A program made the position numbers and the translations under genes. Positions 8,068-54,560 of a DNA stretch of 64,000 bases are shown here, in pieces. The stretch comes from Synergistaceae bacterium (GTDB lineage Bacteria; Synergistota; Synergistia; Synergistales; Aminobacteriaceae): positions 1 through 64,000 of the forward strand of contig JAFSKV010000021.1 of assembly GCA_017448795.1 (NCBI GenBank), in the 5' to 3' direction. The notes under the pieces are model-generated. The model was not told the origin of the DNA. It saw only the letters and a program-made list of their open reading frames with translations, and did not search any database. The first letter of the stretch is position 1. The number at the start of each line of letters is the position of its first letter.

Positions 8068-9066
8068 TCAAACGATGTACTTCTTGAGGACGGGAATGTG
8101 ATTCAAGATTGCGGATATGGTGAACGAAATCACGAACACAATCGCCGCAATCACCGGGATTGATATTACCGGGCAGAAAGTCAGCGAGTGAAGCCCCATC
8201 TTCCCCAGCAGGTTAATCACAGCGGCATGAACCAGATATGCCCCAAAGGAGTACTGCGACAGTTGACGGATGAATCTCACCGGGAAATTCAGCTTCTCAC
8301 GGAAGAACACGAACACTGCCACTGCCTCGCACAGAGTCGTAACAGTGAGGTTGCCGTAGAATATCGAGCTGGGCGAGTCCTGAGCGAGTGATACTGCTGA
8401 CGAAAGGATGACGCACACAATAACGCTCACAACCCCGGCGGCATATATCACGCGTTCGGCCCTGCGTGAAATCTTCGCGGTGCTGAGGAAGTAGCCGAGC
8501 AGGAAATATCCCGTGAACCCTCCCACAAACTCAAGCATAGGCATCCCGGCCAGCTTCCCCGCAAACTTCCCGTATTCCTCCGAGAACAGCGAGATGATTT
8601 CAACAGTCTCAGGCAGAACGAACGCGAACACAAACGACATCACCAGAAAGTATTTCGTCAGCGTCCCGGACTCAGCAATCTTCCTCATGAACGGCACAAC
8701 CGCATACAGCCCGGCGATCATCCACAGGAACCACATGTGATAATACCCCGTCAGGAACTGCGCAAACGCCTTCAGCGCGTCCCCGTTCTTCACGTAAGCC
8801 CGGCAGGCGTACACCAGCGACCAGAACACAAACGCCGTGAATATCCTGAATATGTACTTGGTGTAGATTTTCTTGGCGGGAATGTCTTTGCTTGGACTGA
8901 GGAACAATGCACCGCTCATCATAACGAACGCAGGGACTGCCCAGCGCACTAAGCCCCCGTGCCAGAAATTCATTGCCTGCCATTGCGATGTGTACACGTC
9001 CGTTGTGTACCAGTTCTGCGCCGCCACATGAAGCACCATCACCGCAAACGCTCCCGTTACCCGCAA
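8068..9066 (-). CDS. Acyltransferase 3 family membrane O-acyltransferase (candidate phase-variable gene)
   Basis: A multi-pass membrane protein of the acyltransferase 3 family (OatA/WecH type), which transfers acetyl or other acyl groups to surface polysaccharides. Visible are about ten hydrophobic segments, the early LRVTGAFAVMVLHV segment with the conserved Arg and His, and YYHMWFLW. The frame given begins at an internal TTG, but family members normally have a few residues before this Arg. In-frame codons upstream (YCFDF, then seven 7-bp repeats) continue the homology-like N-terminus. The best start, ATG at 9142 with GATGAGG eight bases upstream, is out of frame by one base; loss of one repeat unit would join it. 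In the present sequence the gene is therefore probably off or poorly translated. It lies 43 bases after the AsmA-like gene on the same strand. Confidence 0.8.
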   Translation of the reverse strand: MRVTGAFAVMVLHVAAQNWYTTDVYTSQWQAMNFWHGGLVRWAVPAFVMMSGALFLSPSKDIPAKKIYTKYIFRIFTAFVFWSLVYACRAYVKNGDALKAFAQFLTGYYHMWFLWMIAGLYAVVPFMRKIAESGTLTKYFLVMSFVFAFVLPETVEIISLFSEEYGKFAGKLAGMPMLEFVGGFTGYFLLGYFLSTAKISRRAERVIYAAGVVSVIVCVILSSAVSLAQDSPSSIFYGNLTVTTLCEAVAVFVFFREKLNFPVRFIRQLSQYSFGAYLVHAAVINLLGKMGLHSLTFCPVISIPVIAAIVFVISFTISAILNHIPVLKKYIV

Positions 9067-9082
9067 AAAGTCAAAACAGTAG

Positions 9083-9131
9083 GCTCTCTGCTCTCTGCTC
9101 TCTGTTCTCTGCTCTCTGCTCTCTGCTCTCT
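9083..9131. repeat. Seven tandem 7-bp repeats (GCTCTCT) at the acyltransferase 5' end
   Basis: Seven consecutive heptamers occupy 9083-9131. Six are GCTCTCT and the fourth is GTTCTCT. Seven is not a multiple of three, so each unit gained or lost shifts the reading frame. On the minus strand they lie between the ATG at 9142 and the conserved N-terminus of the acyltransferase. Reading from that ATG now gives a 23-codon peptide ending at TGA; with six units (or nine) the frame runs into the enzyme. Confidence 0.9.
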
Positions 9132-9184
9132 GCTATTATCATTATGTGCGCCTCATCAAAATTTCAAGGGTAATATCCCCTATC

Positions 9185-45597: not shown

Positions 45598-48500
45598 ATG
45601 TACCAGCTGGCAGAACTCTTCAGGAACTCAACGCATGATTACTCGGCCTTCACGCCTGAGACAGTCAGCGCAATCGAGTCCCTAATCTACACCAAGACGC
45701 AAAGAGGCCGTGAAGTACCCTATATCAGGTGCATCATCAGGGATAAGGAGATTCGCCTAACGCCGGAAGAAGCAGTGAGACAGCTCTATGTGTACACGCT
45801 GATTCATGAGTACGGCTACGGCCCGGAGCGCATAAAGCTCGAACACGGTATCAATTTCGGGCGTGAGGTCAAACGCGCTGACATCGTGATATTCGAGAAG
45901 GATCATCCCACGTCTGAATACATCATAGTCGAGGTCAAGAAGCCCAAAGTCCGCGAGGGAAAAGCACAGCTCAAATCCTACTGCAACGCGTCAGGGGCAA
46001 TCATAGGAGTGTGGACGAACGGCGAGGATTTCTCCTACTACCACCGCAAAGATCCCAACTACTTCGAGAACATCCCCGGCCTCCCCAAAGCCTCACAGAA
46101 GCTCCGCGACATTCTCCGCGAACGCTGGACAATCTCAGACCTTGAGGCAAAAGACAGGCTCAGGGACGGCAGCAAGTCCTTGACCTCGCTCATTCAGGAA
46201 ATGGAGGATGACGTTCTTGCTGACGCTGGGGTCGATGTCTTCGAGGAAGTCTTCAAGCTCATATACACGAAGCTCTACGATGAGATGCAGAGCGGGCGGG
46301 ACAAATCACGGGTGCTTGAGTTCAGGAATTACGGCGACACTGACGCTGACCTCAAGGCCAACATTCAGGAACTCTTCCGGCAGGCAATGAAGAAATGGCC
46401 GGGAGTCTTCGGCGAGAAGGACGGAATATCTCTGACTCCCTCGCACTTGTCCGTGTGTGTCTCAGCATTGCAGGGTGTCAAGCTCTTCAACTCAAACCTT
46501 GATGTCGTTGATGACGCGTTCGAGTACCTCATGAGCAAGTCCAGCAAGGGCGAAAAAGGACAGTTCTTCACCCCCCGCTACGTTATCGATATGTGCGTGA
46601 GGATGCTCAACCCACAGGAACACGAGGCCATGATTGACACGGCGGCCGGGTCATGCGGCTTCCCGGTTCACACAATCTTCCACGTGTGGCGGCAGATCCT
46701 AGCGGAGAAGGGCATTGAGCAGAGCCACCTTTTCACGGCGGAAGAAAAGCCCCCTGAGTGCCAGGACTACGTGAAGGATAAAGTTTTCGCCATCGACTTT
46801 GACGAGAAGACAGTAAGAGTCGCAAGAACCCTCAACCTCATAGCAGGCGACGGACGCACCAACGTTCTCCACCTTAACACGCTGGATTACGGACGCTGGG
46901 ACGAGACAGTGAAGCCCCGCCAGTGGCAGAAAACCTACAATGAAGGCTGGCTCAGGTTCACGGACTTCTGCGAGCGTGAGGAGGACTACAGCGCGTTCAC
47001 GTTCGATATTGTGATGGCGAATCCTCCGTTCGCGGGCGACATCAAGGAGGGCAAAATCATATCCCGCTACGAGCTGGCCAAAGACGCGAGGGGAAAATAC
47101 GTCAGCAGGATCGGGCGTGATATTCTCTTCATCGAGCGCAACCTTCAGTTCCTCAAGCCCGGCGGAAGAATGGCGATCATCCTCCCCCAGGGCAGGTTCA
47201 ACAATTCCAGCGACAAATACATACGGGACTTCATAGCGGGGCAGTGCAGGATTTTGGCGGTAATCGGCCTCCACGAAAACGTCTTCAAGCCCCACACAGG
47301 GACGAAAACGAGCGTGCTTCTTGTGCAGAAGTGGGATGATGAGCTGTGTCCGAGAAGGGAGGATTACCCGGTGTTCTTCGCGACGATGAGGAAGCCGGGC
47401 AAGGACAATTCGGGCGAAAAGATTCTGCGCAAGGATGAGGCGGGGCGGCTTCTGCTGGACTCGCACAATCATGTGATAGTTGAGCATGACCTGTACAATC
47501 ACGAGGGTTTGACGGAGGACGGGATTGCGGAGGCGTTCATTGAGTTTGCGAGGAGGGAGGGGCTGAGTTTTTTCGGGGATGCCCGCTTTGCTGAGGAACG
47601 TTACAGGGACTTGGTGAGCGGGCTTGAGGTGAGTGAAGTAGCATTTAGTGAGATAGTGGCTAGTGGGAGGATGGATACGGAGTATTATTCGCGGAGATAT
47701 TCTGTGTTGCATGAGGCTACAACAAGCCGTGATTATGTCTTGCTGAGAGATATTGTAGAGATGCATGATGTGTTCTCGAACGGAGCATTTGCTTTTGTCC
47801 TAGATACGTTGAAGGATGACGGGGAAAAAGTGATACCGTATATACGTTCCCAGAATGTCGGTAACATGTTCATTAATTCGGGCGAGCTTGCAAGGATTTC
47901 TGCTAAGGCTCATGAATTACTGCCGTTATCCCAGACAAAGCTACACGATATTATGATGGCTAGGACAGGGAAAATCGGCGGGGCATCGATAATAACTCAG
48001 AGCGAAGTCAACTATAACTGCAACCAGAATGTAATCAAGCTGACAATCAACGAGCCAGAGAAATACAATCCGTACTACATTGCGGCATTCTTCAACAGCA
48101 GATACGGCATCTTGCAGGTAGAACGTGAGTCAACTGGCAACGTCCAGCCTTGGGTCAACATATCAAAGCTCAAAGAATTAAAGTGTTTCATCGCAACCAC
48201 AGATTTCCAGAGCATAATAGCAAGACAGCTAGAGGAAGCTCATAACATGCTGGCCGAATCCGAATCCCTCTACACCGCCGCACAGTCCCTCCTCACCGAC
48301 TCCCTCGGCCATGTCCCCCAAGACCCCCGCAACACCGCCACCGTGCCATTCTCGCGGGCATTCAGCACAGGCAGGCTCGACGCGGAATACTTCATGCCCA
48401 AGTATGACGGGTATATTGCGTTCATTCACAGCTTCAAGGGCGGATGCGCTACTATAGGCTCGCTGTTCAGTCAGGTAACGTCCAGATGTCCACGTGATGA

Positions 48501-49017
48501 GCCGTCATACCGTTATGTTGAAATAGGCGACATAGACACAGGAACAGGGGCGGCATCCTACAACGAAATCGACACTGCCGACCTCCCGGACAACGCAAAA
48601 ATCATGACAAGGGCAGGGGATATTCTCGTCTCGAAGGTAAGACCTAACCGCGGGGCTGTTGCTATTCTGGAAGATGATAACTTGCTGGTCAGCGGTGCGT
48701 TCACAGTTCTGCGCAAGAAATCGGAATATAGCTGTGAGATGTTGCAGGTTATTCTGCGTTCTGATTTGTACAGGGAGCTTTTGTTGCGCTATAACGTAGG
48801 GACATCATACCCGGTCATAAAGGACGAAGACATACTGAATATGCCAGTGCCACTCCTTGACCACGACACCCAAGAGAAAATCTCCGGCCATGTGAGAGAG
48901 TCATTCACCCTCAGACGGGAGTCCGAACGCCTCATTGCCGCCGCTGTGAGAGCTGTTGAGCTGGCCATAGGGTACAATGAGGACACAGCACTACAATTCC
49001 TCGCAAAGGAGACATAA
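45598..49017 (+). CDS. Single-chain restriction-modification protein (nuclease, N6-adenine methylase and specificity domains)
   Basis: A 1139-residue fusion. Residues 1-150 form an HsdR-N-like PD-(D/E)XK nuclease (D95, E112-V-K114, then QLKSYCNA). Residues about 210-600 form a type I-like N6-adenine methylase with GQFFTPRYVI, DTAAGSCGF (motif I) and MANPPF (motif IV). Residues about 665-1139 hold two HsdS-like target recognition regions with predicted helices between them. There is no helicase, so it resembles type IIG/Bcg-like enzymes that cut near a bipartite site while methylating it. DNA of the first recognition region (about 47.64-48.25 kb) is visibly more AT-rich than its flanks, consistent with module exchange. 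No separate S or R gene is near. Confidence 0.87.
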   Translation: MYQLAELFRNSTHDYSAFTPETVSAIESLIYTKTQRGREVPYIRCIIRDKEIRLTPEEAVRQLYVYTLIHEYGYGPERIKLEHGINFGREVKRADIVIFEKDHPTSEYIIVEVKKPKVREGKAQLKSYCNASGAIIGVWTNGEDFSYYHRKDPNYFENIPGLPKASQKLRDILRERWTISDLEAKDRLRDGSKSLTSLIQEMEDDVLADAGVDVFEEVFKLIYTKLYDEMQSGRDKSRVLEFRNYGDTDADLKANIQELFRQAMKKWPGVFGEKDGISLTPSHLSVCVSALQGVKLFNSNLDVVDDAFEYLMSKSSKGEKGQFFTPRYVIDMCVRMLNPQEHEAMIDTAAGSCGFPVHTIFHVWRQILAEKGIEQSHLFTAEEKPPECQDYVKDKVFAIDFDEKTVRVARTLNLIAGDGRTNVLHLNTLDYGRWDETVKPRQWQKTYNEGWLRFTDFCEREEDYSAFTFDIVMANPPFAGDIKEGKIISRYELAKDARGKYVSRIGRDILFIERNLQFLKPGGRMAIILPQGRFNNSSDKYIRDFIAGQCRILAVIGLHENVFKPHTGTKTSVLLVQKWDDELCPRREDYPVFFATMRKPGKDNSGEKILRKDEAGRLLLDSHNHVIVEHDLYNHEGLTEDGIAEAFIEFARREGLSFFGDARFAEERYRDLVSGLEVSEVAFSEIVASGRMDTEYYSRRYSVLHEATTSRDYVLLRDIVEMHDVFSNGAFAFVLDTLKDDGEKVIPYIRSQNVGNMFINSGELARISAKAHELLPLSQTKLHDIMMARTGKIGGASIITQSEVNYNCNQNVIKLTINEPEKYNPYYIAAFFNSRYGILQVERESTGNVQPWVNISKLKELKCFIATTDFQSIIARQLEEAHNMLAESESLYTAAQSLLTDSLGHVPQDPRNTATVPFSRAFSTGRLDAEYFMPKYDGYIAFIHSFKGGCATIGSLFSQVTSRCPRDEPSYRYVEIGDIDTGTGAASYNEIDTADLPDNAKIMTRAGDILVSKVRPNRGAVAILEDDNLLVSGAFTVLRKKSEYSCEMLQVILRSDLYRELLLRYNVGTSYPVIKDEDILNMPVPLLDHDTQEKISGHVRESFTLRRESERLIAAAVRAVELAIGYNEDTALQFLAKET

Positions 49018-49020
49018 CCC

Positions 49021-50379
49021 ATGAACGCAAAACACAACAGCCGCGAAATCTTCGAGTCATGGCCGATACCCAAAGCCTTAACCGAGCTTGCCCTGCCGAT
49101 GATATTCGGACAGCTCATAATTCTGGTCTACAATCTCGCTGATACATTCTTCATCGGTCGCACCAACAATCCCCTAATGGTCGCGGGAGTCTCTCTGCTC
49201 CTTCCCGTCTTCAACATCTCAATCACATTCGCCAACCTCTTCGGCATCGGAGGAGGGACTCTCATTTCCCGTCTCATGGGCGCGAAACGTGATGACGAGG
49301 CCCGGAGTGTCTCGGCGTTCTGCTTCTGGATGACGATATTAGCCGGGGGAATGTTCTCGGCGTTCATGTACGTCTTCATGACCCCTGTGCTTCGTATGCT
49401 TGGGGCTAGCGATGACACGCTGAAATTCGCCGGGCAGTACACGTTCTGCGTTATCGTTCTCGGAGCAGTCCCCACGATTCTGGGAATGACGCTGTCGAAC
49501 TTCCTGCGCTCGACGGGGCGGGCAAAACAGGCTGGCTTCGGTGTCTCGATGGGCGGCATCATCAATATCTTCCTCGATCCCCTGTTCATGTTCGTGATTC
49601 TGCCGGAGGGTGATGAGGTTCTCGGCGCGGGAATCGCTACCATGCTGTCCAACGTCATAATCTGCGTGTACTTCCTGTGTGTGATTCTTGCTGACCGCGG
49701 CGGGATAATCTCATTGTCGCCCGCTAACGTCCTTGCTTCTGCCCGCAACATCTACGAGGTCTTCGCTGTCGGTGTACCTGCGGCAATCTCGGTAACGCTC
49801 TTTGACGTAACATATATAGTCATCGACAAGCTGGCTTCAAGTTACGGTGATATTCCGCTGGCGGCTGTGGGAATTGTGCTGAAGGCCGAGCGTCTGCCCC
49901 TCAACGTGGGAATAGGCCTGTGCATGGGGATGATGCCTCTTGCGGGGTACAACTATTCGGCGGGGAATCTCGCGCGTATGAGGGAGGCTGTGAGCTTCTC
50001 GCGGAAGGTCGGGCTGGTGTTCGGGTTCGTGAGCGTGGCAATGTATGAAATTTTCGCGGCGTACATCATGCGTATCTTCATTGAGGACGCTCAGACTGTG
50101 GAGCTTGGGACTCACTTCCTGCGGGCTAGGGTGCTTGCGACTCCGTTCATGTTCATCTGCTTCCACCTAGTGAACTTCTTCCAAGCTGTTGGAGACGGGG
50201 GGAAGGCTCTGAATTTGGGCGTGGCTCGCTGGGCGGTGTTCAACATTCCGTTATTGTTCGTGATGAACTGGGTGTTCGGGATGTATGGGATTGTTTGGAC
50301 GCAGGTTGTTGCTGACGTGATGATGGCGGGTGTGTCTTTGTGGGTGTACAGGAGATTCGAGGCGCAGCACAAGCTGTAG
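49021..50379 (+). CDS. MATE family multidrug exporter
   Basis: A 452-residue membrane protein with twelve predicted helices. It has the MATE hallmark start (ALTELALPMIFGQLIILVYN), FIGRTNNPLMVAG and the second-half repeat GVPAAISVTLFDVTYIVIDK. It exports cationic drugs or metabolites using Na+ or H+. The ATG follows the restriction-modification stop by three bases, with AAGGAG inside the end of that gene, so the two may be co-transcribed. Confidence 0.93.
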   Translation: MNAKHNSREIFESWPIPKALTELALPMIFGQLIILVYNLADTFFIGRTNNPLMVAGVSLLLPVFNISITFANLFGIGGGTLISRLMGAKRDDEARSVSAFCFWMTILAGGMFSAFMYVFMTPVLRMLGASDDTLKFAGQYTFCVIVLGAVPTILGMTLSNFLRSTGRAKQAGFGVSMGGIINIFLDPLFMFVILPEGDEVLGAGIATMLSNVIICVYFLCVILADRGGIISLSPANVLASARNIYEVFAVGVPAAISVTLFDVTYIVIDKLASSYGDIPLAAVGIVLKAERLPLNVGIGLCMGMMPLAGYNYSAGNLARMREAVSFSRKVGLVFGFVSVAMYEIFAAYIMRIFIEDAQTVELGTHFLRARVLATPFMFICFHLVNFFQAVGDGGKALNLGVARWAVFNIPLLFVMNWVFGMYGIVWTQVVADVMMAGVSLWVYRRFEAQHKL

Positions 50380-50456
50380 GGGATATTGCGGTGAGGTATA
50401 CGGTGAAGACAGTGTATAATGCGGGGAAATTCCACGAAGGGAGATTTGACTTCGCT

Positions 50457-51374
50457 ATGTCTGAAGCTGTACATTCTTCAGCAAGCAAGCAAGCAAGCAA
50501 GCAAGCCTGCCTCATTTTAGCATATAAGCCGGATCTTGTATTCCGTACACTTATCCAGATGCTCGACCACCCGAAAAACGACATCTTCATCCACATGGAC
50601 GCAAAGACGGCCTCATACGACCCCGCCGACACAGAAGCCCTCGTGAAACACAGCAGGGTTGTCCACGTCCCGCGCATAAGGGTGCAATGGGGCGCGTACT
50701 CGCAGGTTGAGGCTGATATGCTGATGCTTGAGGCCGCTACATCACAGGGGCATTACGGGCATTATCACATTCTGTCCAACGCTTGCCTGCCAATCAAGAC
50801 TCAGGACGAAATCGCCGCGTTCTTTGAGGCTCATCACGGAGTCGAGTTCGTCAGCTTCCCAAGTGAGACGTTCACATTCTCGTCCGAAGAGCGCGTAAGG
50901 TACTACTACCCGTTTCAGGAAATCAAGGGCAGGAAAGGCAGCCTTCCTGTTCGAGCCATGGCCAAGCTTGCGCTAATCCTCCAGAAAATCCTTCACGTTC
51001 ACCGCAACAAGGGCATCAAGTTTCAGAAGGGCGGGGACTGGTTCAGCATAACGGATGAGCTTGCTAGGTATGCTCTCTCCAAACGTGAATGGATAAGGGC
51101 TGTCTTCCATGACACATATATACCGACAGAAGAGTTCATGCACACGCTCATAATCAACTCACATTTCAGCAACAGACTGTTCCGCGTGGAAGCATTGACT
51201 CTGGGGCTTCCTCAGCACATGCGCCTCATCGATTGGAAGCGCGGAGAGCCTTACACGTTCCGGCTGTCAGACCTTGAGGAAATCCAGAAATCCCCGGCCA
51301 TGTTCGCCCGGAAATTCGACGAGGCAGTTGACCCGGAAATCATCAGGAGGATACAGGAGCTTTATTCCCGCTGA
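50457..51374 (+). CDS. GT14-like (Core-2/I-branching) glycosyltransferase with N-terminal tetranucleotide repeat
   Basis: A 305-residue enzyme of the Branch (GT14, beta-1,6-GlcNAc transferase-like) family. The domain begins at ACLILAYKPD and continues with MLDHPKNDIFIHMDAK, QWGAYSQVEADMLML, YGHYHILSNACLPIK, GDWFSITDELARYAL and PTEEFMHTLI. Such bacterial enzymes decorate surface polysaccharides. The N-terminal SASKQASKQ is encoded by six GCAA repeats just before the domain, so each gain or loss of a unit would break the frame. At present ATG 50457 is in frame (ON), with AAGGGAG 13 bases upstream. GTG 50391, close to AGGGGA, is an alternative start, also in frame. It lies downstream of the MATE gene. 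Confidence 0.82.
   Translation: MSEAVHSSASKQASKQACLILAYKPDLVFRTLIQMLDHPKNDIFIHMDAKTASYDPADTEALVKHSRVVHVPRIRVQWGAYSQVEADMLMLEAATSQGHYGHYHILSNACLPIKTQDEIAAFFEAHHGVEFVSFPSETFTFSSEERVRYYYPFQEIKGRKGSLPVRAMAKLALILQKILHVHRNKGIKFQKGGDWFSITDELARYALSKREWIRAVFHDTYIPTEEFMHTLIINSHFSNRLFRVEALTLGLPQHMRLIDWKRGEPYTFRLSDLEEIQKSPAMFARKFDEAVDPEIIRRIQELYSR
50481..50506. repeat. Tetranucleotide tract (GCAA)6 in the GT14 gene
   Basis: Six perfect GCAA units and a partial GC occupy 50481-50506, inside codons 9-17 of the glycosyltransferase. Four is not divisible by three, so slippage switches frame. Tracts of this kind (for example CAAT in lic genes of Haemophilus) drive phase variation of surface glycans. Confidence 0.9.
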
Positions 51375-51456: not shown

Positions 51457-52548
51457 ATGAAAATTGCACTTGGAACTGACCACGCAGGCTTCGTACTCAA
51501 AGACGCAGTAACCTCATACCTCAAGGCAAGAGACGTGGAAATCCTCGATCTTGGAGCATACGAATACGACAGCGAGGACAGCTACACCGATCCTGCCTTC
51601 CGTGTGGGCGGGGCAATAATGGACGAAGCGGCGGACGCAGGAGTCCTCCTCTGCGGAACAGGCTACGGAATCTCAATCGCCGCCAACAAAATCCCCGGTG
51701 TCCGGGCCGTCTCCTGTGAGACACCAGAACATGCCCGCGTCGCGAAAGCACACAACGACATCAACGTCATAGCTCTCGGCGGTCGCACAGTGAAGCCCGA
51801 AGAAGTCCCGGACATCCTCGCCACATGGCTTGATACTCCGTTTGAAGGCGGAAGGCATCTGCGCAGGCTCAACAAGATTTCCATGGTCGAGAAGTCAACC
51901 CTCAACGTCATACAGGGAGGCGGCCGCATAACAATCTTCAACCATCCGCTCATCCAGCACAAGGTCGGCATAATCCGCGACAAGAACACCAGCGTCAAGC
52001 AGTTCCGGGAATTGTTACAGGAAATCACCGGGCTTATGGTCTACGAGATCACACGCTCACTTCCCCTCACCGACAAAAAGGTTGAGACTCCCATCGAGGA
52101 AACGACCGTGAAGACAATCGAGGGCAGGAAGATGGCAATCGTCCCGGTATTGCGCGCGGGCTTGGGAATGGTTGACGGAATACTTCAGCTTGTCCCCAAC
52201 GCCAAAGTCGGCCACATCGGACTGTACAGAGACCCTCAGACCCTCCAGCCTGTCGAGTACTACTGCAAGCTCCCGTTCGACATTGAGGAACGCGACGTGT
52301 TCGTTCTTGACCCTATGCTTGCTACCGGCGGAAGCTCATCCGACGCAATCGGACTCATCAAGAAGCGCGGAGGCCGGAAGATCTCGCTGGTCTGCCTGAT
52401 TGCCGCCCCCGAAGGAATCGAGCGCGTTCACCGAGAGCATCCTGACGCTGAAATCTACGCGGCGGCTCTGGACTCACACCTCAACTCACACGGATACATA
52501 GTGCCAGGACTCGGCGATGCAGGAGACAGGTTATTCGGCACAAGATAG
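51457..52548 (+). CDS. Ribose-5-phosphate isomerase B / uracil phosphoribosyltransferase fusion
   Basis: A 363-residue bifunctional protein. Residues 1-140 are RpiB: GTDHAG (D8, H9), the catalytic Cys in [15 protein letters not shown] (C66) and [12 protein letters not shown] (H99). Residues about 150-363 are a complete Upp: [28 protein letters not shown], the PRPP loop [16 protein letters not shown] (about 283-297) and the [11 protein letters not shown] end. There is one continuous frame. An internal ATG at the junction has no ribosome site. RpiB makes ribose 5-phosphate, the precursor of PRPP, which Upp uses to turn uracil into UMP, so the fusion joins linked steps. The two genes are neighbours in many bacteria. 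AAGGAG precedes the ATG. Confidence 0.92.
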
Positions 52549-52557
52549 CGGGCAATA

Positions 52558-53442
52558 ATGCTTGACGTTCAACTGTTCATCTTCTTACTGCTTGGATTTT
52601 TCTGGGGCGGACTCACTGCTCCTGTTTCGATAAGGCTTGCGGGTATTTACAGGATAATTGATGTCCCTGATGCCCGCAAGATTCACAAGGACAACACCCC
52701 GCGCGGGGCAGGTATAGGCTTGTGGCTGGGATATATGCTCATGGCCGTATTGCTGTCAGGGAACGTGCCGAACTTGCGCCACATTGCTACAGGGGCAACC
52801 GTGATATTTCTTTGCGGGTATCTTGATGACATGTGTTCACTGAGTCCTTTCTTGAGGCTGGGACTTCACATAGGAGCGTCGGCACTCGTTGTGATTCCGC
52901 TGGACTTGGGGCTTCTGTCAGCAATAATCGCCCTCATATGGCTTGCAGGAGTAACGAGCGCGTACAACCTCATCGACGGCATGAACGGCCTGTGTATCTC
53001 GATATTCATTGCGTCATCTCTGGCGTTGTTCCTGCTTGGGCGGTCATATCCCGGTATCTACATGGGGGCAATGGCACTCGGTGTATTGTGCTGGAATTTC
53101 CCTTCCGCTCAAACTTTTTTGGGGGACGGGGGAAGTACGTTGCTTGGGTATCTTTTCGCGTCCCATTTCCTGACATCATCGGCGGGAGTCCTGCGAAATT
53201 CCGGGATAACGGACTTGCTGATACTGTTTGTGCTTTTCGGGGGAATACCTGTTGTTGACACATTGACAGCGTTCACAAGGAGAATGCTGACGGGCAAATC
53301 TCCCTTTTACCCGGACAAGAAGCACCTTCACCACCTGCTGATCTCACTCACAAACTCGAACGTAATCACAGTAACAATCATACTATCATTACAGGTCATA
53401 ATGCTTGTGTTAGGCCTGAGATATTACATGAGGCTGATATGA
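52558..53442 (+). CDS. wecA: WecA/TagO-type undecaprenyl-phosphate sugar-1-phosphate transferase
   Basis: A 294-residue integral membrane enzyme of the MraY/WecA family that transfers (N-acetyl)hexosamine 1-phosphate from a UDP-sugar to undecaprenyl phosphate, starting a surface polysaccharide. Motifs: DVPDARKIHKDNTPRGAG, YLDDMCSLS, NLIDGMNGL, FLGDGGSTLLG and DKKHLHH, a loop typical of WecA/TagO. It has about nine or ten helices. Its stop overlaps the next start (ATGA), tying it to the UDP-GlcNAc epimerase. Confidence 0.9.
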   Translation: MLDVQLFIFLLLGFFWGGLTAPVSIRLAGIYRIIDVPDARKIHKDNTPRGAGIGLWLGYMLMAVLLSGNVPNLRHIATGATVIFLCGYLDDMCSLSPFLRLGLHIGASALVVIPLDLGLLSAIIALIWLAGVTSAYNLIDGMNGLCISIFIASSLALFLLGRSYPGIYMGAMALGVLCWNFPSAQTFLGDGGSTLLGYLFASHFLTSSAGVLRNSGITDLLILFVLFGGIPVVDTLTAFTRRMLTGKSPFYPDKKHLHHLLISLTNSNVITVTIILSLQVIMLVLGLRYYMRLI

Positions 53443-54560
53443 AGAAAATTGCGTGTGTTGTAGGGACAAGACCCGAAGCGATAAAGATGGCACCCGTGAT
53501 ACTTGAGCTTAGGAAAGACCCGGAATTTTGCGTTACAGTTTTGGCGACAGGACAGCACACCGACATGCTGCGCCAGGCATTGGACGATTTCGGGATAACT
53601 GCTGACTTCAACCTGAACATTATGCGCGACCGCCAGACGTTAGACCATATTACGGCCAGCGTGTTGCAGGGAGTCGGTGAGATTCTTGACGGTAACCCGC
53701 AGGACTTGATACTAGTTCACGGGGACACGTCGACGACATTCGCGGCGGCATTGGCGGGGTTCTACAGGCATGTGAAGATCGGCCATGTTGAGGCTGGACT
53801 GAGGAGTCATGACTTGTGCCTTCCGTTCCCGGAGGAAGCAAACAGGGTACTAACCGACAGCATAGCGGATATGTTCTTTGCGCCGACAAAGGGAGCTGCT
53901 GAGAATCTCAGGCGTGAGGGCAAGCCGGAGTCAGCAATATACATCACTGGCAACACTGTCATTGATGCGCTGTATGACATACTGAGCCGCCGCAAGGGAA
54001 TGGATGAGCCGGAATACCTTCGGGGTGTCGAGACTTGTCCGCTTGTGTTGATGACAGCTCACAGGCGCGAGTCGTGGGGGCAGCCTCTCATAGACATTTG
54101 CGGGGCTGTGAAGGACGTAATCCGCGCGAGGCCTGATGTGATGTTCCTGATACCGATGCACAAGAACCCGACTGTGAGGAACGTAATACGCTCGGAGCTG
54201 AGGGACTTTCCCTGCAACGTGATACTTACTGAGCCATTGAGCTACCCTGAATTTGTGTACGCAATGAGCAGGTCTGCGTTCATTCTGTCAGACAGCGGGG
54301 GAGTCCAAGAGGAAGCAACGGCCATCGATAAGCCCGTGCTGATTATGCGGACTGTCTCGGAACGCCCGGAGGCCATCACTGAGGGGACGTGTATTCTTGT
54401 CGGGACTGAGCGGGGGAATATCACGCGTGAGGCTGTGAGAATCCTGAATGAGCCGGGATACATGGCCGCTGTTGTAGGGAAGAACACCAAGCCTTTTGGG
54501 GACGGGACAGCGGGGGCGAAGATTCGTGAGGCTGTGAGGAAGTATCTTGCTGTTGGTTGA
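53439..54560 (+). CDS. wecB: UDP-N-acetylglucosamine 2-epimerase
   Basis: A 373-residue non-hydrolysing epimerase that interconverts UDP-GlcNAc and UDP-ManNAc. Motifs: VVGTRPEAIKMAPVI, TGQHTDML, VHGDTSTTFAAAL, HVEAGLRS, PEEANRVLTD, and LSDSGGVQEEA near the end. Coupled to wecA by a four-base overlap. The pair makes lipid-linked sugar and ManNAc precursors for a surface glycan that downstream glycosyl- and acyltransferases could modify. Confidence 0.95.
   Translation: MKKIACVVGTRPEAIKMAPVILELRKDPEFCVTVLATGQHTDMLRQALDDFGITADFNLNIMRDRQTLDHITASVLQGVGEILDGNPQDLILVHGDTSTTFAAALAGFYRHVKIGHVEAGLRSHDLCLPFPEEANRVLTDSIADMFFAPTKGAAENLRREGKPESAIYITGNTVIDALYDILSRRKGMDEPEYLRGVETCPLVLMTAHRRESWGQPLIDICGAVKDVIRARPDVMFLIPMHKNPTVRNVIRSELRDFPCNVILTEPLSYPEFVYAMSRSAFILSDSGGVQEEATAIDKPVLIMRTVSERPEAITEGTCILVGTERGNITREAVRILNEPGYMAAVVGKNTKPFGDGTAGAKIREAVRKYLAVG

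Follow-up and report, generated by a model that had tools for sequence, protein, structure and literature searches.

A GCAA repeat as a probable frame switch in a GT14-like glycosyltransferase gene of a Synergistaceae bacterium

That repeat tracts can switch the reading frame of surface-sugar genes is already well known, for example from Haemophilus and Neisseria. In H. influenzae, the O-acetyltransferase gene oafA carries a (GCAA)n tract and is OFF with 9 or 10 units and ON with 11 (PMC6479036). The locus described here resembles oafA in its GCAA unit and in a surface-glycan enzyme probably controlled by frame, but oafA encodes an acetyltransferase, belongs to the Pasteurellaceae, has a longer tract and is not known to carry a promoter of the P2 kind discussed below. 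Sugar-transfer genes with tetranucleotide tracts and independent ON/OFF switching also make up the Haemophilus LOS loci lic1A, lic2A, lic3A and lgtC (PMC6479036, PMC2651432); unlike these loci, the present genome involves other enzyme families and is dominated by pentamers, heptamers and poly-G. Heptamer and pentamer tracts have been described in Haemophilus too, and for short pentamer tracts, (GACGA)4 among them, fast switching is reported (PMC2651432). Campylobacter, Helicobacter and Neisseria likewise carry many homopolymer runs in surface or modification genes of one genome (PMC2823697, PMC3025981); theirs are mostly homopolymers, whereas here poly-G occurs alongside 4-, 5- and 7-mers. A literature search, with most subscription journals outside its reach, found no report of such phase variation in Synergistetes or Synergistaceae.

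We analysed a window of 64,000 nt from a Synergistaceae bacterium (GCA_017448795.1, contig JAFSKV010000021.1, positions 1–64,000 of the forward strand). Searches covered the whole 2.54 Mb genome to which the window belongs, plus about 0.3 Mb of sampled stretches excluding contig L104, whose letters are all N, and the genus was represented by 43 metagenome-assembled genomes. The closest relatives with names are recorded as Synergistaceae/Synergistales from the gut of goat and reindeer, which fits the gut anaerobe presumed in the original prediction.

The tract at the focus of this study is a period-4 run (AGCAAGC...AAGC) of 27 nt with 100% matches (Table 1). As originally predicted, it contains six full GCAA units that read SASKQASKQ when translated from ATG 50457, ahead of the first strand of the domain, and the gene is currently in frame. 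Under an independent-base model such a tract is expected about 1e–9 times per 64 kb. It is the only run of at least four GCAA units in the 2.54 Mb genome; the same search with the reversed pattern gave no runs, and no copy of the tract region was found in the viral contigs searched. Computed frames agree with the prediction that the gene stays open only if the unit number changes by a multiple of three: removal or addition of three units, like the present number, leaves an ORF of 301–309 aa, and the other changes tried lead to a stop after 15–28 aa. A perfect non-triplet short tandem repeat is thereby present in the 5' coding region, and a change in its unit number shifts the frame and truncates the product, as at a contingency locus. 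Translation from an alternative ATG at 50419 would match the domain frame after a change of +1 or –2 units. This codon overlaps the putative –10 box TATAAT of an upstream promoter (P1) and should therefore be absent from the P1 transcript.

Table 1. Features of the window that bear on the two repeat tracts
Feature	Position	Strand	Basis
Acyl_transf_3 (PF01757) gene	8068..9142	-	Pfam, frame computation
Heptamer tract, AGAGAGC on the minus strand, ~7.4 units with one interruption, at the acyltransferase 5' end	9083..9134	-	
MatE-family transporter, upstream neighbour conserved in G021, G022 and G057	49021..50379	+	Pfam, comparison
Putative –10 box TATAAT of the upstream promoter (P1)	50415..50420	+	inferred
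Putative Shine-Dalgarno (SD) sequence AAGGGAG, 13 nt ahead of ATG 50457	50437..50443	+	inferred
Promoter-like TTGACT-N18-TACATT (P2); overlaps the start codon, with 4 nt between its end and the tract	50446..50475	+	
GT14-like (Core-2/I-branching, PF02485) glycosyltransferase ORF, 305 aa, in frame (ON)	50457..51374	+	Pfam, fold
(AGCA)6.75 tract containing (GCAA)6	50480..50506	+	sequence, structure model
Glycos_transf_4 (WecA-like) transferase, downstream glycan context	52558..53442	+	Pfam
UDP-GlcNAc 2-epimerase (WecB-like), downstream glycan context	53439..54560	+	Pfam

The product matches the PF02485 Branch family (E 9e–22, 78.3 bits versus a cut-off of 23.4). Its structure model (mean pLDDT 87.7) retrieves xylosyltransferase 1 and C2GnT-L as the best PDB folds (E 1e–18 to 1e–14), with a GT-A fold likeness of TM ~0.68–0.73 on the query. 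It shares PF02485 and the fold with these two enzymes (CAZy GT14), but it is bacterial and only ~18% identical to them. In the model, residues 1–11 have pLDDT below 50 and strand 1 comprises residues 16–22, so that the tract encodes ASKQASKQ, part of a poorly ordered N-terminal tail directly ahead of strand 1. Residue E225 in the PTEEF region, where the base of C2GnT-L lies, is invariant in 22 sequences and may be its equivalent.

The WecA-like transferase and the epimerase downstream form what is, by sequence, a polysaccharide context. Between these genes and the GT14 gene, a single ORF (51457–52548) fuses an RpiB-like isomerase to a uracil phosphoribosyltransferase. On the other side, one ORF at 45598–49017 combines HsdR_N, N6 methylase and Methylase_S parts and resembles a fused type I restriction-modification system; it lies near the switch locus and is kept beside it in G021 and G057.

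A GT14 match is present in 8 of the 43 genus genomes, the window's included. Leaving out a distant match in G040 (35% identity) gives eight close copies in seven genomes, two of them in G039. All eight carry a tetranucleotide tract directly ahead of the first strand, at the same codon; in G057 the unit is (GCAG)7.5, replacing GCAA. In the four copies whose common leader is M[STAI]EAVHSSA, the leader-to-domain distances (48, 40, 44 and 44 nt) differ by whole 4-nt units. By computed frames, two copies are in frame (the window's and that of G025) and six are out of frame, including the second copy of G039 (the frame of G022 was judged from its GTG); one third would be expected in frame if the frame were free. 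We looked for internal stops in the GT14 domains of the copies and found none. Differences at the three codon positions (~0.3/0.2/0.55) show a third-position excess even between out-of-frame alleles, which indicates that the domain is under purifying selection. Between species, then, length differences of whole units and ON and OFF alleles occur together with an intact domain. In three genomes GT14 likewise follows MatE (identity 77–84% for MatE and 56–61% for GT14), from which it follows that GT14 evolves faster than its neighbour. In more distant homologues (Lachnospiraceae and others), which lack a tract at this place, the protein begins a few residues ahead of strand 1.

These observations strongly support the phase switch originally read from the window's tract, through eight tracts at one codon, whole-unit differences, ON and OFF alleles and a conserved domain. 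They also bear on two other explanations. That the repeat is a fixed low-complexity linker, a tolerated SASKQ tail with no switching, would agree with a gene that is now in frame and a tail modelled as disordered; we consider it very improbable given that six of the eight copies are out of frame and that many unrelated genes have this layout with non-triplet units. Least credible of all is that assembly or sequencing artefacts or decayed genes produced the pattern: the genomes are indeed metagenome-assembled and homopolymer runs are error-prone, but one tract position recurs in eight copies from seven genomes, the domains are free of stops and the codon positions bear the mark of selection.

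We therefore regard the GT14 locus as very probably a translational contingency locus, with its frame set by the GCAA count. Strand slippage during replication would add or remove units, also within a strain, and since four is not a multiple of three, it would depend on the unit count whether ribosomes that start at ATG 50457 read into the glycosyltransferase domain. Extra triplets of units would be tolerated because the tract encodes a disordered tail before strand 1, leaving the frame alone to matter. The presumed acceptor of the sugar that the enzyme transfers is a surface polysaccharide or glycoprotein, and switching may therefore yield cells with differing surface sugars, possibly to their benefit against host immunity or phage. 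Against such a switch stand the shortness of six units beside Haemophilus tetramer tracts (9–11 in oafA, PMC6479036), with a rate that could be low; the distance between the compared species (protein identity 52–68%), over which frame differences could be old; and the chance that some out-of-frame alleles use unrecognised starts.

The original prediction paired this locus with an acyltransferase tract. Both tracts are real, and the acyltransferase gene is now OFF: its frame from ATG 9142 stops at codon 24, the domain being open in another frame. A picture of two tracts, however, underestimates the scale, with many more found across the genome. Across the genus, acyltransferase homologues mostly have a tract at the corresponding place but with different units, heptamers (GACAGCA, GGAGTCA, GAAGGCA, GGAAGCA, GAGAGCA) as well as pentamers (GACCA, GACAC). 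This turnover of units at a fixed position shows that selection maintains the switch rather than the sequence. Elsewhere in the window's genome there are a (GACCA)5 tract in a second acyltransferase, an (ACACG)n tract in a GT2/pyruvyl-transferase gene whose two parts lie at separate contig ends, (AGTTTGC)5 preceding a GT4 gene, (CAGCAGT)3 in front of a methyltransferase and (GGCTCAC)n in secreted beta-helix proteins. Two paralogous initiating sugar transferases (L192, L194; G000:C55, C72) carry (CGCACAT)n, one in frame and the other out; such a pair could choose the first sugar of a surface polymer. Further tract genes of this kind would switch independently of GT14, and combinatorial antigenic variation, as originally suggested, may be the result. 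A HemW-like radical SAM gene (L101:1931–3070, G000:C16), which is no obvious surface gene, has a (CCACTAC)6 tract at its start.

Poly-G runs of 11–14 number 22 in the window's genome (merged count) against about one expected from base composition alone, and such runs occur in 38 of the 43 genomes of the genus. Genes that contain them include Caps_synth, CotH, EcoRI-type methylase, GDSL lipase and TPP enzyme genes. The EcoRI-type adenine methylase (PF13651, E 3e–125) has its poly-G12 near the 3' end, close to the C-terminus (L112, G000:C6 ~34240), and phase-variable methylation (a phasevarion) is possible there. A gene with poly-G14 (L132, G000:C48 ~26195) weakly matches the Pfam Leukocidin family (24.2 bits versus a cut-off of 22.4), a matter of similarity only. 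Of 59 contig ends sampled, 6 begin right in a tract (0.07 expected), which is indirectly consistent with tracts being variable in length or too long for the assembler to cross.

Many tracts directly follow a promoter-like sequence. Of 15 tract-gene leaders, 13 have TATAAT or a near match (at least 5/6) ahead of the SD, and because this box precedes the SD, an ordinary messenger can start there and carry both the SD and the start codon. In addition, near-perfect sigma-70 promoters in tract-gene leaders overlap the SD-to-start region and end at the tract. Leaders that score at least 10/12 belong to six of eight tract genes but to 1 of 158 ordinary gene starts; counting the complete C11 leader (TTGACA-N16-TAAAAT) raises the former to seven of eight. 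The less biased direction is from promoter to tract: the genome contains 21 perfect TTGACA-N15-18-TATAAT sites, and 8 of these have a tract in the next 12 nt, compared with 0.235% of random positions (P-value 2e–16). By eye, several of the remaining perfect promoters look like stable-RNA or housekeeping promoters. In the genus sample a tract follows 9 of 29 perfect promoters, with an SD-like sequence in front of 8 of those nine; in a family-wide sample, nearly all from outside the genus, a tract follows none of 29. Acyltransferase leaders score 9–12/12 where they bear a tract and mostly 7–9/12 where they do not.

For the GT14 gene itself, P2 is weak, with 9/12, a score attained by 6% of ordinary gene starts. 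A scan of 1.2 kb spanning this gene gave two promoter-like sites versus 0.8 in shuffles, and since this local result is little above the shuffles, the case for P2 rests on the genome-wide tests. The G025 and G029 homologues apparently have no P2 –10 box (by eye). The sequence CTGTACATTCTT is common to the GT14 gene, its G021 and G039 homologues and a GT2 gene in the window's genome. Its interpretation as a mobile leader motif was dropped; the –10 box of P2 is the better fit, an incomplete explanation.

Transcripts from a promoter abutting the tract would, by sequence, have neither SD nor start codon, and that such a promoter drives repeat instability is a guess. The one precedent for it is the title of a cited paper on opa genes. 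It is conceivable, if on balance unlikely, that initiation at P2 melts the repeat and raises slippage even in short tracts, the frame still being the output. The tracts after 8 of 21 perfect promoters, the difference between genus and family samples and the acyltransferase leaders speak for this addition, but the P2 of the GT14 gene scores just 9/12 and the melting step is conjectural. We think it improbable that the switch is instead transcriptional, with unit number altering promoter activity or RNA stability and the frame secondary. P2 does end at the tract in many loci, and GCAA tracts of G029, G037 and G039 lie outside the main ORF, in leaders; however, in the GT14 genes the tract sits between the SD and start codon and the domain, no later start codon precedes strand 1, and tract length leaves the –35/–10 spacing unaffected.

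The tracts in G029 and G037 (L045, L049, L041, L061) consist of GCAA units, which read TGCT on the coding strand, and lie in leaders that diverge from ttcA-like genes. A small ORF, overlapping a larger gene, comes after them, and several contigs end inside the tract. An initial reading of these tracts as upstream of ttcA was rejected, as the other strand places them in the leaders of the divergent genes.

Overall, the frame switch adds gut Synergistaceae to the bacteria with large-scale repeat phase variation, which so far have been mainly host-adapted Proteobacteria and Campylobacterota. The promoter that so often abuts the tract hints at a connection, open to testing, between transcription and the rate of switching, which has long been a question. 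A still more doubtful proposal than initiation at P2 alone is a standard switch module of the genus, made up of SD, TTGACA, start codon, TATAAT, repeat tract and domain, in which a consensus promoter would be kept next to the repeat so that initiation destabilises it. If that reading is true, the contingency genes of these bacteria would carry a built-in and possibly regulated mutation driver.
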